Assembly (NCBI GenBank): GCA_018334055.1
Contig: JAGXSS010000039.1
Location: 1 to 64,000 of the forward strand
DNA length: 64,000 nucleotides
Source of the DNA: Peptococcaceae bacterium
GTDB taxonomy: Bacteria; Bacillota; UBA994
Reading direction: 5' to 3'
Position numbers and translations under genes: made by a program
The notes under the pieces: generated by a model
The model's input: the letters and a program-made list of their open reading frames with translations, nothing else
Told to the model about the DNA's origin: nothing
Database searches by the model: none
In this document: piece after piece, positions 24,287 to 31,528 of the stretch
Layout of the letters: each line of letters starts with the position of its first letter
Numbering within the stretch: position 1 is the first letter of the stretch

Positions 24287-25678
24287 CTACTCGTCGGCCA
24301 ACTTAGCTATGGAGAAACCGAGGTAGCCATAGACTACGTTGATGACAGGGATCAAGAGGTTGAGAAAGGCATAAGGGAGGTAGGCCAGGGGAGAAACCCC
24401 GAGAGTGGCCATCATAAAGGCCCCGCAAGTGTTCCAAGGGATCAAGGCGGAGGTCACCGTACCGCCACCTTCAAGGGCGCGAGAAAGGTTCTTCGGCGCC
24501 AGACCACGTCGCGCATACTCGTCCTTAAAGAGACGTCCCGGCAGCACGATGGACAGATACTGGTCGGCGGCGAGAATGTTGACGGCTATACAACTGATGA
24601 TGGTACTCAACACGAGAGAACCATTGCTCTTGGCCATGGCGAATAGCTTGACGCCGATGGCGCGGAGCATGCCCGTCTTTTCTAACATGCCGCCAAATAC
24701 TAGGGCACAGACAATGAGGGCCACTGTCCACATCATGCCGTCTAATCCACCGCGGTTGAGCAGGCGGTCGACCACCGCGACGCCACTGTCGATTTCGAAG
24801 CCGTAGTGCGCCGCCGTAATAATAGCGCCCACCGAGGCGCCCTGGAATATGGCGGCAAAAAGGCCACCAGCCACCGAACCGCCGATTAGCCCTGGCAAGG
24901 CGGGAACCTTGAAGGCGATCAGCAAGATGACGATTACAGGGGGAATTAAGAGCCAGGGGGAGATGGCAAAGTTTGTCCTCAGGGCATCTAAAATCACGTT
25001 GATGCGCTCCGCATCAAGTTCCCGGCCCGCAAACCTCAAGCCGAGGATAACATAGAGGACCAATGAAATGACAAATGCAGGGATAGAGGTATAAAGCATG
25101 TGTTTTATATGGGCAAAGAGCGAACTGCCGGCCATGGCGGGAGCAAGATTCGTAGTGTCGGAAAGCGGGGAGAGTTTGTCGCCAAAGTAGGCCCCGGAGA
25201 CTACGGCGCCAGCGACCATGCCGGCTGGCATCCCTAAACCGATGCCGATGCCCGTCAGGGCTATGCCCACAGTGCCGGCAGTACCCCAAGAAGTACCTGT
25301 GGCGAGAGACACGATACAACAGATAACGAATGTGGCAGCGAGGAATACCCCAGGCGAGAGAATTTGTAGGCCGTAGTAAATCATGGCGGGGATGGTGCCG
25401 CTTAAAATCCATAGCCCAATCAAAGTGCCCACAATCATGAGTATGAGAATCGCCTGCAGGGTTGAACTCAGGGTGTCCTTAATTCCTTCCTCGAGTTCTT
25501 CCCAAGGGATACCGAGCATCGCTACCGCGACGACAGCGGCAATGATGCTACCAAAGATGAGTGGAATATGAGGGGCAGCTTCATGTACGAGAACGGCATA
25601 CGACAGGGCGGACACGACACAGATGATAGGTATAAGGGCATGAAAAATGGTAGCTTCTATCCTTTTCTTTGAAACCAC
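24287..25678 (-). CDS. nhaC: NhaC-family Na+/H+ antiporter
   Basis: A 463-residue integral membrane protein with about 11-12 hydrophobic segments. Family features include IPAMIYYGLQI, the conserved SLATGTSWGTAGTVGIALTGIG and VVSGAYFGDKLSPLSDTTNLAPAM with charged residues in the transport core, and the C-terminal GTVTSALIPWNTCGAFM. NhaC members exchange Na+ for H+; some relatives (MleN, TetB-like) exchange malate or lactate, or arginine/ornithine-type solutes, so substrate is not fixed by sequence. It is followed by a hairpin terminator and then the 418-aa/panB unit. It diverges from the ECF sigma operon. Confidence 0.92.
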   Translation of the reverse strand: MVSKKRIEATIFHALIPIICVVSALSYAVLVHEAAPHIPLIFGSIIAAVVAVAMLGIPWEELEEGIKDTLSSTLQAILILMIVGTLIGLWILSGTIPAMIYYGLQILSPGVFLAATFVICCIVSLATGTSWGTAGTVGIALTGIGIGLGMPAGMVAGAVVSGAYFGDKLSPLSDTTNLAPAMAGSSLFAHIKHMLYTSIPAFVISLVLYVILGLRFAGRELDAERINVILDALRTNFAISPWLLIPPVIVILLIAFKVPALPGLIGGSVAGGLFAAIFQGASVGAIITAAHYGFEIDSGVAVVDRLLNRGGLDGMMWTVALIVCALVFGGMLEKTGMLRAIGVKLFAMAKSNGSLVLSTIISCIAVNILAADQYLSIVLPGRLFKDEYARRGLAPKNLSRALEGGGTVTSALIPWNTCGAFMMATLGVSPLAYLPYAFLNLLIPVINVVYGYLGFSIAKLADE

Positions 25679-25885
25679 TGTAGATCCCTCCTACTTTTAT
25701 TTGGGCTAAAACCTGCAACATGCCGTAGGCATCACCCTTTCTGAAATAACTCACTATTGCTTATATACTATCTAATCAACGCGGAAATGACAAGTGACAC
25801 CTTTAGGCAACTATTTAGGCTTTTCACTAGCGGTAACACATGATATCTTTACGTCATGAAACCAATCTTGTGACGGAGGGTGAGT

Positions 25886-26629
25886 ATGGACCAAGGTTGT
25901 GCCTCTCTGCGCCCGGTTTTTCTTCCCGCCGCTCATACTGCCCTTCCCAGCGCGCCTTATATGGCCCACTGGGCAGAATTTATTTGGTTGTTTTTTGTCG
26001 GTCCCAAACTGGACGAACAAGATTTAAAAAGGGAGAAAGCTCTCGTCGAGAGGGCTCGTCACGACCCCGAGGCCTTTGGCGAGCTCTATGAACAAAACTA
26101 CGATCGCATCCTAAACTACGTCGTCCGTCGGACGGCTTCTGTCGAAACTGCCCAAGACATTACCGCCGAAACATTTTATAAGGCTTATAAGAACATTGGC
26201 AAGTTCACTTGGCAAGATGTCCCCTTTCAGGCCTGGTTGTACCGCATTGCCCACAGTGAAATTGGTCTTTGGCACCGCAAGCGCTTCTCTCCTTCAGTCT
26301 CTCTCTCTTTGCTTCAAGAGCAGGGTTTTGACCCCGCTGCCGAACAGGACGTAGAAAAAGAAATACTGGCCGCCGAGGCGGAACTTCTGCGCCATCAGGA
26401 CTTCTTAATTGCGCAAAAACAGCTCGACGCCTTGCCGGAAAAATACCGCGAGGTGCTGTTTTTGCGCTTCTTTGCGGAATTGCCACTGCAAGAAATTGCC
26501 ACCGTCCTCGAAAAGCCCCTCGGGACCGTTAAATCCCTGCTCCATCGCGGCCTCGAGAAGCTGCTGATTATGACCACTGCCGCTAAAAGCAGTGCAACCC
26601 AAAGCTCCAATCGGCATTATAAAGCATAG
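25886..26629 (+). CDS. ECF-type sigma factor, first gene of an RsgI-like regulatory operon
   Basis: A sigma-70-family protein of about 247 aa. Region 2 spans roughly residues 55-115 (FGELYEQNYDRILNYVVRR, DITAETFYKAYKNIGKF) and region 4 spans 180-235 (LPEKYREVLFLRFFAELPLQEIATVLEKPLGTVKSLLHRGLEKL). An N-terminal extension of about 45 residues, with a hydrophobic WAEFIWLFFVG patch, is unusual for ECF factors. ATG 25886 is preferred over GTG 25880 because GGAGGG lies upstream. The next gene, 12 bases on, encodes a membrane protein with an RsgI-type domain, the expected anti-sigma partner. Probable autoregulation is inferred. Confidence 0.9.
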   Translation: MDQGCASLRPVFLPAAHTALPSAPYMAHWAEFIWLFFVGPKLDEQDLKREKALVERARHDPEAFGELYEQNYDRILNYVVRRTASVETAQDITAETFYKAYKNIGKFTWQDVPFQAWLYRIAHSEIGLWHRKRFSPSVSLSLLQEQGFDPAAEQDVEKEILAAEAELLRHQDFLIAQKQLDALPEKYREVLFLRFFAELPLQEIATVLEKPLGTVKSLLHRGLEKLLIMTTAAKSSATQSSNRHYKA

Positions 26630-26641
26630 GGGGTGATGTAG

Positions 26642-27874
26642 ATGGAAAAGTACGATGTCGCCAAACTCGAAAACGCACTGCGCCAGCTTCCTCTGCCTAC
26701 CATCACTACCCCTCTGCACAAGGAAAGGCTGCGCCTGACCTTGCTCGCTGAAGTCGAAGCAACGCGGAAACGCCAACTACCATGGGCGGCTGCGGGTTTT
26801 TGGTACAGCTTTGTTCGTTTTGCCCGTCGCCGCTCCTTGTACTTGGGACTACCATTAGTCGCCGCATTGCTTTGGATAGTGCTTTGGCAGCCACTCTTTG
26901 TTACGCCCCCTACCTTGGCCTATGCCACCCTACAGGCTAACCCCGCCCTAGAGTTGAGCATCGATGCGCGGGGCAGAGTTCTTGAGATTACCCCTCTTAA
27001 CGCACAGGCGGGCTTACTTTTTACCCCACTGGCTTTTCGCCATGTATCCGCCCAAGTTGCGGTGCAGGAGATAATTTCGCGCCTTTACCGCGAAGGTTAT
27101 GTGCAGAGCGGCGGGTCCTTAGCCCTTCTAGTCCACCCCGCTCCCAATATCGACCGGGGACGCATTACTCAGCTGGCGAACGCTCTGCGCAGTAGCGCCG
27201 ACCGCTCTTTAAATGAAATTGCCTCCGGCGCGACACTGAAGGATTTTGTTGTTTCCGGAGCAGTCTCGGCTGAGTATCGCGCCGCCGGTCTCTTACCTCT
27301 CGAAATTGTTATGCTGCTTGATGAAGATTTCGAGGAGGATACAATAATCTCTCTGCTTCGTCTAAGGGAGCAACTAAGTCTAGATGAGACCACGTTTCGG
27401 GCTAGATTCCCGGGCATGGCCAAAATCGTGCGTGAGGCCCAGCGCGAAAATCTACCCCGCGATAAAGTGCTGTACCTTGGGCGTAAGTCTTTAGCCTCTG
27501 AAAAAGATGACGAGGAGGAAAAGGAAGACGACAGGGACGAGGCGGAGGTTGGGCCGCCGCGTTCGCCGCGCTTGCCGCGCGAGAGGCAGGACCAGGGGAG
27601 AAGCGACAAACCCGAAGACCGCGACGATGCAAAACGGGAGCCCCGACAAGAAAAAGATCCCAAGGATAAGGACGAATCAACCCCTCCTGGGCAAAACAGG
27701 CCCCCTCGCTCTGACGATGAAGAGGGGGACGATAGACCTGGCAGACGGGAAGGTGAGCCCCCACGCGGCGACGAAGAGCCTGATTCACCTCGCGGCGACG
27801 AAGAGCCTGATTCACCTCGCGGCGACGGAGAGCCTGACCCAAGGTATGACGAGGAGGATGACCGGAGTGACTAG
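26642..27874 (+). CDS. membrane anti-sigma-like protein with RsgI-type extracytoplasmic domain
   Basis: A 410-residue single-pass protein. Residues 1-62 form a basic, helical cytoplasmic part; a membrane segment follows at about 67-87. From residue 93 there is a domain like the RsgI middle domain: LQANPALELSIDARGRVLEITPLN, then an Ala-rich helix. In RsgI proteins the Asn-Pro bond at this place is the autoproteolysis site; here it is N100-P101. The C-terminal third (from about 285) is low-complexity, acidic and Arg/Pro-rich, including tandem RGDEEPDSP units. By position after an ECF gene it should be its anti-sigma factor, but the N terminus lacks a recognisable RsgI or zinc anti-sigma module. 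Confidence 0.82.
   Translation: MEKYDVAKLENALRQLPLPTITTPLHKERLRLTLLAEVEATRKRQLPWAAAGFWYSFVRFARRRSLYLGLPLVAALLWIVLWQPLFVTPPTLAYATLQANPALELSIDARGRVLEITPLNAQAGLLFTPLAFRHVSAQVAVQEIISRLYREGYVQSGGSLALLVHPAPNIDRGRITQLANALRSSADRSLNEIASGATLKDFVVSGAVSAEYRAAGLLPLEIVMLLDEDFEEDTIISLLRLREQLSLDETTFRARFPGMAKIVREAQRENLPRDKVLYLGRKSLASEKDDEEEKEDDRDEAEVGPPRSPRLPRERQDQGRSDKPEDRDDAKREPRQEKDPKDKDESTPPGQNRPPRSDDEEGDDRPGRREGEPPRGDEEPDSPRGDEEPDSPRGDGEPDPRYDEEDDRSD
27764..27844 (+). repeat. three tandem 27-bp in-frame repeats
   Basis: Two identical units beginning CGCGGCGACGAAGAG (27764-27790, 27791-27817) and a third degenerate copy (27818-27844) encode RGDEEPDSP-type nine-residue repeats near the C terminus of the anti-sigma-like protein. 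Copy number could vary between strains by slippage. Confidence 0.92.
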
Positions 27875-27982
27875 AGAAAATTTCGGTTCCTCCTGCTCTT
27901 TTTGCAACCTTTCTCCGGCTTTGACATTGTAGAGGTAGAAGCAGAGAGTTACTCCGCTTACTTGATGGAAGAGGTGATCCTT

Positions 27983-29242
27983 ATGTTAAGGAAAGGTAGC
28001 ACTAAATTGGTGGCTGTGATCATCGCCGTAGTGGTAATTGTCGCGGGGTATGCGGTACATACTTCCCCACGCGCCTTTGCCCAACTCTCGGTCCAGATTA
28101 ACCCGGAAATCTTGCTGACCCTTGATCGCAATCATAGAGTGCTTAAGGCAGAATTCAAAGGGGTGGAGGATTACCCAGCACTTGCCGATTTAGCTCTAGT
28201 CAATGTGACTGCCGATGAGGCACTGGCCAGCATCGCCACTGCCCTTTCCGCGCTCAACTTGCTGCAAGGCAACCGGGAAGTGATGATTGTCGTCGTCCCG
28301 GCCCGGGGAGTAACTGCCGAGCAAATCGCCCCCTTGGCCAGCTCTGCCGAAAAGAGTATCAGAACCCACCTCCAGGGCCTGCCCACTCAAGTGCCTGTTG
28401 CGGCAGCCTTGCTCGGCACAGAACTCTACGAGGCCTTTAACCGCCGCGCCATACCATTGGCCTCCTTCTCGCGCTTCCTGCGCGACGGCCTTACCGAAGC
28501 ACACTTAGCCGCCATTGTGGCTTTACAGACCGAATTGGCATTAGACGCCACCCTGTTTGCCAAGGAGTTTCGGAGCATCGTCAAGTCCTTCATGGACCTC
28601 CACGAAGTGAGTGCCGACGAAAAAGCGGCCTTGGACTTACTCAAGGTGGCCCTCCAAGCCGACCCTAGCCTACAGTCGGTGTACCATACTGCCTCGGCCC
28701 TCGCTGATATGACTGAGGCAGGTATTGCCCCTCTCCATACCAAGGCACTCCTTGCCCTGCGCCAGAACCTTGACCCGAAAGTCTTTCGCCAAGAGTCGTC
28801 CTCGCTGGCCTCGGCCCTCATTGATATGTATGAGGTGGGGATTAAGCCCGAAATCGGCCTCGCGACCATTGCCGCTGCCATTAAGGCGGACCCATCATTA
28901 GAAGAACTCGACACCATCACCTCGGCCCTAGTTGATCTTATCGAGCGGGGCATTCCGGTGGAAGAAGCGGTTCTTCAGCTAAACGCCGCCATGGTGGCTG
29001 ACCCCACTCTGCAAAACCTCGATTCATTGCTTGGCCTCACGGATGACAGAGGCCGTGGCCAGGGCAGAGGCGACCACGAGGACAGGGCTCGCGACAACAA
29101 GAAGGATGCAGCAGACGACCAAGAAGATGAAGATGAAGATGAAGATGAACAGGAAAAAGAGCGTTACGAGGATAAGGATGAGGACGAACAGGAGGGTCAG
29201 GGGAAAAAGAACAAGCCTAGAGGGAAGAAGACCGGCAACTAA
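27983..29242 (+). CDS. second RsgI-domain protein with helical repeats and acidic tail
   Basis: A 419-residue secreted or anchored protein. Its membrane segment lies at residues 8-25, immediately followed by an RsgI-middle-type domain (LSVQINPEILLTLDRNHRVLKAEF) with the same Asn-Pro pair at 40-41. Residues about 130-350 contain several helical units of about 40 residues (ALADMTEAGIAPLHTKALLAL, ALIDMYEVGIKPEIGLATIAAAI, ALVDLIERGIPVEEAVLQLNAAM). The last 60 residues are a Asp/Glu/Lys tail. There is no cytoplasmic anti-sigma part. I start it at ATG 27983, with AGAGGTG upstream. A sensor or decoy partner of the preceding protein is inferred. Confidence 0.78.
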   Translation: MLRKGSTKLVAVIIAVVVIVAGYAVHTSPRAFAQLSVQINPEILLTLDRNHRVLKAEFKGVEDYPALADLALVNVTADEALASIATALSALNLLQGNREVMIVVVPARGVTAEQIAPLASSAEKSIRTHLQGLPTQVPVAAALLGTELYEAFNRRAIPLASFSRFLRDGLTEAHLAAIVALQTELALDATLFAKEFRSIVKSFMDLHEVSADEKAALDLLKVALQADPSLQSVYHTASALADMTEAGIAPLHTKALLALRQNLDPKVFRQESSSLASALIDMYEVGIKPEIGLATIAAAIKADPSLEELDTITSALVDLIERGIPVEEAVLQLNAAMVADPTLQNLDSLLGLTDDRGRGQGRGDHEDRARDNKKDAADDQEDEDEDEDEQEKERYEDKDEDEQEGQGKKNKPRGKKTGN

Positions 29243-29551: not shown

Positions 29552-31528
29552 TTGGGTAAACACGTTTTGCTGGTCGTTTCCATACTTTCTTTGCTGGCGG
29601 CGTTGTTCATCGGCATCCCGCCGGTTGTTGCCCAGGGGCCGATACGCGTACTCATTAACGCAAGCCCCTTAGTCTTAGAAGTCGCACCAGTCATTCAAAA
29701 CGGTCGCACGCTCGTTCCTATGCGCGCTATCTTTGAAGCGCTGGGGGCCAGAGTACACTGGGACCAGGCCACCAGCACTGTTACCGCCTACCGGCGCGAG
29801 CGCGCCATAGTCCTTACCATCGGCAGCACCACCGCCTGGGTCAACGGGCCGCCGGTGCAACTGGCAGTTCCGCCGGTCATTGTCGAAGGTCGCACCATGG
29901 TTCCTCTGCGCTTCGTGGCTGAGGCCCTTGGTGCCGAGGTCGCTTGGCAGGACGACCCCCCAACCGTCACTATCACTCACACCCCCTACGTGCCTCCACC
30001 CGTTGGTGGCACCCTAGCGCTCGGATCTATTGCTGACCCGGTGATCTTAAACCCCATCCTCTCCACAGACACCGCCTCGGCGGCCATTCACGGACGCACC
30101 ACCTGGGGCTTAGTACGAAGCGATGTAAACCTCAGTCCCATGAATGCCATCGCCGATCGCTGGACATGGGATCAAACAGCACTGACCTGGCGTTTTTGGT
30201 TGAACCCGAACGTCAGGTGGCATGACGGCACCCCGGTGACTGCTCGCGACGTAAAATTCACTTTCGACACCGTAGCGCATGCCGAATACGACGGCCCTCG
30301 CCGTCCGGCGGTAACTCATGTGCAAGAGATCATCGCGGTCAGCGACCATGTTGTCGATTTTAGAATGCGACAGGTTGACTCCGCCTTCTTATTTAACATC
30401 GGCCTGGGGTTGATTCCACACCACATCTTAGGCCATGTACCGGTGCGGGAGCACCGTGCCCACCCCACGAGCCGTACGCCCATGGGGAACGGCCCCTACC
30501 TTTTTACCCGCTGGGTATCCGGACAATTCGTGGAGCTGACCCGCAACCCAGACTTCTTCCAAGGCGGAGGGAGGCCCTACATTCAGAGCGTTATCACCCG
30601 CACCTACCCGGATATCAATGTCATGCAGGCTGCTTGGGAAAATGGCGACATTGACTGGTTTGGCGCGCTACTCACTGACCACATTGACCGCATCATGCGC
30701 GAACATGCCCAGCGTGCCTACTTTAAAGAGGTGCCAAGCCACGGTTATGACTATGTGAGCTTCAACCTTGAGCATCCCATTCTTAGTGACCGCCGCGTGC
30801 GCGAGGCCCTGGTAGTGGGACTTGACCGCCGGGCCATGGTCGACACTGTCCTCGACCGGCGAGGGCAGGTCATCCACGCTCACCAAGTGCCGACTTCCTG
30901 GGCTACCGGGGCCCAGGGACTGAACCCCTACACTCACAGTGCGGTGCGAGCACGTCAAATGCTCGATGCCGCCGGATGGCGAGTGCCGGCGGGTAGCCGT
31001 GATGGAGTGCGCATGAAGGACGGCCAGCGTTTGACCTTGCGCCTCATGACCAATGCGGGGAATGCCATCCGTGCCGATATCGCCGCCCTCGCCGAAAGCT
31101 ACTGGAAGCGCATCGGGGTAGAATTGGTGGTCGAAATCCTCGAGTGGTCCGTAATGCTCGCCCGTTTTAGTCGGGTGGAGTATGACATGGTGCTCATCGG
31201 TTGGTCTCTTGGGCTTGACCCTAGTGGTTTTTCCTTCTTCCACTCCTCCCAAGCGGTGAGAAATCCAGCCGGCGTTGTGCCAGGGTTTAACCGCGGCCAG
31301 TTCCGTAATGCCGAGGCCGACAGACTGATAGAGGCTGGACGCGCCACCATGGATCTCGCCGAAAGACGGCGCCTCTACCATGAGCTTGACCGCATTTTGA
31401 ATCACGAGCTACCCTATATTTGGATCTTCCAACGCACGGTGGTCACGGCGATCGCCAATCGCGTGCAAGGAGTACAGTGGGGGCCCATCGGTGCTTGGTT
31501 TAGCGAAGCCTGGTTTATAGGGCGGTAA
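29552..31528 (+). CDS. copper-amine-oxidase-stalk/peptide-type ABC substrate-binding protein fusion
   Basis: A 658-residue exported protein. Residues 1-28 form a signal peptide ending VVAQG. Residues about 30-145 contain the CuAO N-terminal-like stalk module (VIQNGRTLVPMRAIFEALGA, then VIVEGRTMVPLRFVAEALGA), common in Clostridia surface proteins. From about 150 a family-5 oligopeptide/dipeptide-binding fold follows: GGTLALGSIADPVILNPILS, NVRWHDGTPVTARDVKFTFDTV, NGPYLFTRW, SFNLEHPILSDRRVREAL. No lipobox is seen, so the stalk probably replaces lipid anchoring. No permease or ATPase genes adjoin it, so the solute is unknown. Start TTG 29552 has GGGGGGAGG upstream. Confidence 0.9.
   Translation: MGKHVLLVVSILSLLAALFIGIPPVVAQGPIRVLINASPLVLEVAPVIQNGRTLVPMRAIFEALGARVHWDQATSTVTAYRRERAIVLTIGSTTAWVNGPPVQLAVPPVIVEGRTMVPLRFVAEALGAEVAWQDDPPTVTITHTPYVPPPVGGTLALGSIADPVILNPILSTDTASAAIHGRTTWGLVRSDVNLSPMNAIADRWTWDQTALTWRFWLNPNVRWHDGTPVTARDVKFTFDTVAHAEYDGPRRPAVTHVQEIIAVSDHVVDFRMRQVDSAFLFNIGLGLIPHHILGHVPVREHRAHPTSRTPMGNGPYLFTRWVSGQFVELTRNPDFFQGGGRPYIQSVITRTYPDINVMQAAWENGDIDWFGALLTDHIDRIMREHAQRAYFKEVPSHGYDYVSFNLEHPILSDRRVREALVVGLDRRAMVDTVLDRRGQVIHAHQVPTSWATGAQGLNPYTHSAVRARQMLDAAGWRVPAGSRDGVRMKDGQRLTLRLMTNAGNAIRADIAALAESYWKRIGVELVVEILEWSVMLARFSRVEYDMVLIGWSLGLDPSGFSFFHSSQAVRNPAGVVPGFNRGQFRNAEADRLIEAGRATMDLAERRRLYHELDRILNHELPYIWIFQRTVVTAIANRVQGVQWGPIGAWFSEAWFIGR

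Follow-up and report, generated by a model that had tools for sequence, protein, structure and literature searches.

The window analysed here, a 64,000-nucleotide stretch of a Peptococcaceae bacterium genome (GenBank assembly GCA_018334055.1, contig JAGXSS010000039.1, positions 1 to 64,000), carries three adjacent genes on the plus strand: a sigma factor of the extracytoplasmic function (ECF) type and two membrane proteins bearing the middle domain of the RsgI family. Our findings indicate that these genes probably encode an autoregulated ECF sigma/anti-sigma circuit with a chimeric anti-sigma factor, in which RsgI-type self-cleavage would start regulated proteolysis. The anti-sigma factor joins a cytoplasmic segment of two helices, native to this ECF group, through one membrane helix to the RsgI self-cleaving middle domain. 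Because a promoter word of ECF type sits, within the genome, solely before the two RsgI-type genes, the three genes appear to form one small self-regulating circuit. An earlier sequence-only reading of this locus, which placed the three open reading frames correctly, had suggested an alternative sigma/anti-sigma/co-sensor system; that suggestion is borne out by the RsgI domain, recognized by profile and by fold, by the promoter word shared by the second and third genes, and by a gene order that is kept among relatives.

Domain architecture and conservation

The sigma gene (25886..26629, plus strand) encodes 247 amino acids comprising regions 2 and 4 preceded by a N-terminal extension of about 40 residues. 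Its expected ECF character is evident from matches to Pfam Sigma70_r2 (1.7e-12) and Sigma70_r4_2 (2.4e-15) and to the NCBIfam sigma70-ECF model (2.8e-26). Regions 2 and 4 are the only ones present, and the locus supplies both an adjacent gene for a membrane anti-sigma factor and an AAC-type promoter, as is characteristic of ECF factors. The start at ATG 25886 is kept in the nearest relative (L068), with which it has an upstream GGAGG site in common; conservation of the alternative start, ATG 25961, was not found in that relative. Among solved chains the closest by sequence is sigma-BldN (6dxo_A, E=1.7e-30), although a score of 102.6 bits against a cut-off of 206 places the protein outside the BldN subfamily TIGR02952.

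The first RsgI-type protein (26642..27874, plus strand, 410 amino acids) is conserved in its own family (f1) and beyond, and the second (27983..29242, plus strand) has 419 amino acids. Both contain the RsgI middle domain: Pfam RsgI_M (PF23750) matches the first at 1.3e-10 (42.4 bits) and the second at 4.5e-6 (27.7 bits), each exceeding the curated cut-off of 25.3 bits, and it matches nothing else in the genome. Profiles built from the two families likewise match solved RsgI periplasmic domains (8u9o, 1e-12 for the first and 4e-10 for the second). Furthermore, the best solved match to an AlphaFold model of the second protein is the Bacillus subtilis RsgI ectodomain 8t9n, with a template-modelling (TM) score of 0.75-0.77 and a probability of 1.0, and Clostridium thermocellum RsgI domains rank next. 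Neither the profile search nor the fold comparison thus gave the negative outcome on which the sequence-only reading would mainly have fallen.

The Asn-Pro pair at which RsgI proteins cleave themselves lies where it had been placed, at N100-P101 (26939-26944) of the first protein, within an ectodomain at 26906..27316, and at N40-P41 (28100-28105) of the second, where the chain turns from strand 1 to strand 2 of a domain at 28079..28417. The pair is invariant in 10 homologues of the first protein and 11 of the second, for which mean column identity is 40-43%; across a joint alignment of 20 rows (A8), N and P are the sole invariant residues. Among SigI-type and other RsgI_M proteins of the phylum the pair was counted in 46 of 49 rows, of which some repeat the same gene and one (L030) was wrongly included in the 46, its true site reading N-S. 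By analogy with RsgI, the first protein may cleave itself at this bond.

On the cytoplasmic side, the first protein had been described as having no standard anti-sigma motif. This holds for named Pfam domains but not for the N-terminus itself, where residues 1-45 (26642..26776) form a conserved segment of two predicted helices linked by PLPTITT, a motif recovered in 57 hits over the searched loci and consistent with both an alignment (A5) and an AlphaFold model of the sigma factor with residues 1-60, in which the segment reaches a pLDDT of about 94. We scanned GTDB genomes for homologues of the sigma factor, obtaining 80 named loci, and the product encoded after sigma factors of this group opens with this segment, some 40 residues long (consensus EDLIxxLENxExPEIxxPxHxxxLxxxLL), a few loci having intervening genes. 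Proteins bearing it span Bacillota, Chloroflexota and Patescibacteria, and the form seen here is carried by 11 of 399 genomes of the phylum. In the window the segment is followed by the transmembrane helix SLYLGLPLVAALLWIVLWQPLFV (26837..26905, from hydropathy), the ectodomain and an acidic, low-complexity C-terminal tail (27494..27871, from composition).

Elsewhere in the group, the segment and its membrane helix precede varied outer domains: RsgI_M in one group, Beta_propel in Dehalococcoidia (with a serpin gene downstream), DUF3160 in a Microgenomatus-labelled genome, or domains without a name. In the sigma tree all rows with RsgI_M lie to the same side of a single branch (support 99/95). 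Since outside this one clade the segment carries other ectodomains, RsgI_M was apparently recruited, on a single occasion, onto an older anti-sigma segment. The sigma group takes in Bacillota, Paenibacillus alkaliterrae and one Hakubella record, a mixture that makes some transfer of the system between phyla likely. In six loci from Dehalococcoidia and other Chloroflexota (L083-L085, L092, L095 and L096) the segment is joined to a large beta-propeller and a serpin-like gene lies downstream, a possible protease-inhibitor output.

Because the sigma gene and its neighbor share one reading frame, we modelled the sigma factor and residues 1-60 of the first protein as a single chain, reading the intervening TAG as glycine. 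The model has a predicted local distance difference test score (pLDDT) of 81 and a predicted TM score (pTM) of 0.78, with most of the two helices and their link at about 84-94. The modelled sigma factor superposes on CnrH held by CnrY (4cxf; TM 0.78, 3.3 A) and on SigW held by RsiW (TM 0.75), whereas agreement with polymerase-bound ECF factors is poor (TM 0.31-0.40, about 22-29 A). The contact that had been anticipated between the sigma factor and the N-terminus of the first protein is thus partly upheld, in that the segment packs and the sigma factor adopts a closed, CnrH-CnrY-like form, in a read-through construct with no sigma-alone control. The model supports, but does not prove, that the segment clamps the sigma factor in its closed form.

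As had been described from the sequence, the second protein is nearly devoid of a cytoplasmic part and adds helical repeats and an acidic tail, both evident in its AlphaFold model (pLDDT 86, pTM 0.76) and the tail also in its composition. In the model the membrane helix leads into two strands joined by the N-P turn, and about ten helices follow; the helical repeats occupy residues 146-339 (28418..28999, pLDDT about 93) and the disordered acidic tail 29051..29239, with pLDDT below 50 at residues 357-376. Since the sigma-binding part is absent, the effect of this protein must be extracytoplasmic, be it as co-sensor, decoy or output.

The system is present in seven other genomes of the same family. 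The order of sigma gene, long RsgI_M gene and short-tailed RsgI_M gene is kept in five of them (G001, G003, G005, G006 and G007); the two sensor genes of G002 are on different contigs, and G004 has two long-type copies beside the sigma gene and an unlinked gene that lacks the N-terminal segment. G046, which is more distantly related, holds the two RsgI-type kinds at separate places, and the full operon is found again in a Dethiobacter record (L069). In G004, G046 and G037 a separate SigI gene adjoins a separate RsgI_M gene; the ECF-RsgI_M and SigI-RsgI systems therefore coexist.

A shared promoter word

The word TGCAACC-N15-CRTTR occurs exactly twice in the 2.4-Mb genome of the window, at 26593 and 27903. 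The first copy, TGCAACC-N15-CATTA (26593..26619, plus strand), overlaps the 3' end of the sigma gene and would serve the anti-sigma gene; the second, TGCAACC-N15-CATTG (27903..27929, plus strand), would serve the second RsgI-type gene. In GCAACC-N15-CRTTA we recognize the AAC triad followed by a T-tract that is a described hallmark of ECF promoters (PMC6056542), and the sigma factor would accordingly be expected to act at this word.

Conservation of the word is pronounced at the sigma/anti-sigma junction. GCAACC was found there in 34 of 43 loci, whereas 200 shuffles gave an expectation of 1.5 and at most 5, several of these loci being close relatives and so not independent. In the relaxed form (GCAAC followed by C, T or G) it was present in 38 of the 43, and in all 38 the best -10 element (consensus C-A/G-TTA) lay at a spacing of exactly 15. 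The same DNA word appears at these junctions in differing reading frames. A stricter promoter form matched 38 times in 672 kb of named loci, always before sigma, anti-sigma, second-type or exported-protein genes, and its reversed pattern not once. In 14 other genomes the strict form gave nine matches against none for the control; eight stand ahead of RsgI-type or sigma genes, and the ninth ahead of the gene for an exported Cu_amine_oxidN1 protein. The promoter also lies within 180 bases upstream of 12 of 13 second-type genes, where the -10 element varies to CCTTA in the group of G003, G005 and G007 and to TATTG in L033.

Other lineages use the word in related settings. At three loci labelled as Dethiobacter and Clostridium (L066:1871-2896, L076 and L077) the strict promoter precedes an exported protein with two copper-amine-oxidase N-terminal matches, the sole non-RsgI target seen in the Bacillota group. 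In six Patescibacteria-type and unclassified loci (L078, L079, L089, L091, L106 and L108) the circuit is kept and the promoter stands before the sigma gene as well; the first four of these also have it before the anti-sigma gene.

The surroundings of the operon hold several further features. A sigma-70-like promoter, CTGAAA-17-TATACT (25741..25769, plus strand), found weakly by a consensus scan inside a block conserved with L068, is a possible basal promoter of the sigma gene. Divergent from that gene is one of the Na+/H+ antiporter family (NhaC-like, 24287-25678, minus strand), which may relate to the signal; no ECF-type promoter site was found at this antiporter gene. Just downstream of the operon, 29552-31528 (plus strand) encodes an SBP_bac_5 peptide-binding protein fused to a copper-amine-oxidase N-terminal domain, and the promoter word recurs with one mismatch at 29856, internal to this gene.

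A proposed model of the circuit and its alternatives

Taken together, these observations suggest the following course of events. At rest, as the fold model implies, the anti-sigma segment would hold the sigma factor closed at the membrane. The ectodomain would cut itself at N100-P101 with the pieces staying together, by analogy with RsgI, for which PMC10202637 and PMC12203970 describe constitutive N-P cleavage and fragments that remain associated until a signal arrives. An envelope signal acting on the helical and acidic outer part may then draw the first strand off; the disordered region of B. subtilis RsgI has been proposed to probe the wall (PMC13059805). A site-2 protease would next cut the membrane helix and a Clp protease degrade the remainder, thereby freeing the sigma factor. 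This would mirror the RsgI pathway, in which autocleavage is followed by RseP and then by ClpXP at an XAA tripeptide within the membrane helix (PMC12203970). The membrane helix of the anti-sigma protein contains VAA, and the genome possesses genes of the site-2-protease family (M50; best match 4.7e-59). Free sigma factor would be expected to transcribe from GCAACC-N15-CRTTA, yielding more anti-sigma factor, a negative feedback, together with the second RsgI-type protein. The latter, with a cleavable domain but no sigma-binding part, most likely acts outside the membrane, either damping or tuning the response, as a co-sensor or competitor induced by the sigma factor, or serving as a surface output.

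Several points weigh against this proposal. Base composition predicts about 1.2 copies of the strict promoter word in the genome by chance, so that it is the positions of the two copies, and not their number, that are telling. The RsgI_M score of the second protein barely exceeds the cut-off (27.7 against 25.3 bits), and an N-P pair alone is insufficient for autoproteolysis. The fold model is of a read-through sigma/segment chain lacking a sigma-alone control, and was judged by its confidence and its overall fold. Finally, one-mismatch promoter sites number 45 in the genome against 13 in the control, an excess from which the regulon may be wider; several of the 45 lie in repeated DNA and a clear gene set was not found, and we set this wider regulon aside.

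The role of the second protein invites competing explanations. It may be the circuit's output. In that case it would be a surface protein produced when needed and held by a single helix, and N-P self-cleavage would shed or rearrange it so as to protect or bind the envelope. We regard this as a plausible but lesser prospect. Its gene and the anti-sigma gene are the only strict sigma targets in the genome, unlinked second-type copies elsewhere have the same promoter, and in Dethiobacter relatives that promoter drives the exported Cu_amine_oxidN1 protein, which would make the sigma targets surface proteins. Yet the second protein retains a signalling domain and an N-P pair that a mere surface protein would not need, and no enzyme or binding domain is recognized in it. 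Somewhat less probable is a decoy role, in which it would compete for the signal or the site-2 protease against the anti-sigma protein and so delay shut-off. Its membrane-proximal architecture and N-P turn, with hardly any cytoplasmic part, and the predicted sigma-induced promoter before its gene would suit such a role, but competition is unsupported by direct evidence and extra copies per genome would make the damping very strong. On balance we slightly favor a co-sensor or tuner over an output, the co-sensor role being an inference.

Two further alternatives concern the ectodomain itself. It is unlikely that the RsgI-like domain is a structural stalk with a non-cleaving N-P pair, the sigma factor being released by ordinary site-1 proteolysis. 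The motif context (QANPA/VNP, as against DINPS in SigI-type RsgI) and the low RsgI_M identity would fit; against it, N and P alone are kept throughout the 20 rows of A8, while the pair is missing from a few RsgI proteins of the SigI type. We reject as very improbable the reading of the locus as a plain SigI-RsgI pair mistaken for an ECF system, for which the RsgI_M domain speaks. The sigma factor has region 4, which refutes this identity; SigI is absent from the genome (best TIGR02895 match 31.9 bits against a cut-off of 185); the first protein lacks RsgI_N; and in G004, G046 and G037 SigI stands beside an RsgI_M gene of its own. RsgI2/RsgI3 transcripts listed in a Cr-soil metatranscriptome are annotated in the SigI style, and no link from them to this lineage could be made.

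It is tempting to speculate that the self-regulating circuit preferred here is nearly closed, with no strong targets of the sigma factor beyond the anti-sigma factor of the same circuit and at least one sister RsgI-type protein, an idea that we put forward only tentatively. If so, the whole regulon would be the sigma factor's own self-cleaving sensors, and the copies scattered in other genomes would give one sigma factor several sensor inputs. The system offers a clean test case for the role of a second sensor without a sigma-binding part. More broadly, the self-cleaving domain of RsgI, which brings its own first protease cut, emerges as a portable module: attached to another anti-sigma segment, it can work for a sigma class unrelated to SigI. 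For an ECF group so far unnamed that occurs in Bacillota, Chloroflexota and Patescibacteria, both the short anti-sigma segment and the exact promoter code are now available, and regulons in uncultured bacteria are therefore directly predictable. No description of an ECF sigma factor paired with an RsgI-domain anti-sigma factor was found in the literature searched, which did not include the principal ECF reclassification or several important RsgI papers, so that this group may already have a number.

Comparison with known systems

The SigI-RsgI systems of B. subtilis and C. thermocellum (RsgI1-9) are likewise built on single-pass proteins with an RsgI middle domain and its N-P pair. Both proteins described here have that domain, with the pair between strands 1 and 2, and the second adds the fold match to 8t9n. 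The disordered outer region of B. subtilis RsgI (PMC13059805, PMC10202637) resembles the acidic and disordered tails seen here, and a lone extra RsgI is known in RsgI9 (PMC12203970). The partner here, however, is an ECF factor with region 4, and its promoter is ECF-like, with an AAC triad and T-tract, whereas that of SigI is of the A-tract type (PMC6056542). The cytoplasmic segment is not RsgI_N: that domain (PF12791) gave no match in the first protein at E up to 10, while six SigI-type proteins used as positive controls matched, five over the cut-off and L039 weakly. In the absence of both a SigI partner and RsgI_N, the two proteins share the RsgI middle domain yet are not full members of the RsgI family.

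Among anti-sigma factors, the class II protein CnrY, solved with CnrH (4cxf), has two helices and no zinc motif, as predicted for the segment here, and our sigma model superposes on CnrH; sequence similarity to CnrY is undetectable and the outer domain differs. For class III RsbN with sigma-BldN (6dxo), our sigma factor is nearest BldN among solved structures, but two helices are predicted here against three in RsbN (PMC7406223). Neither RsbN nor any other anti-sigma chain matched the segment among all solved chains at E up to 10, with profiles of 10 and 29 sequences returning chance-level hits only. The Tt-RpoE1/Tt-TolB pair of Thermoanaerobacter tengcongensis (PMC3397946) has a comparable layout: a short stretch at the N-terminus (residues 1-39) binds the sigma factor, a membrane span is predicted, the outer domain is large, and autoregulation has been demonstrated. 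Its outer domain is of the TolB type, and its promoter (tGTTAC-N16-CGTC, as against GCAACC-N15-CRTTA) was rejected as the same code, since the -35 element and spacing differ. Outside the membrane both proteins are RsgI-like, and inside it the first resembles a two-helix ECF anti-sigma factor; the term RsgI-type refers to the ectodomain only.

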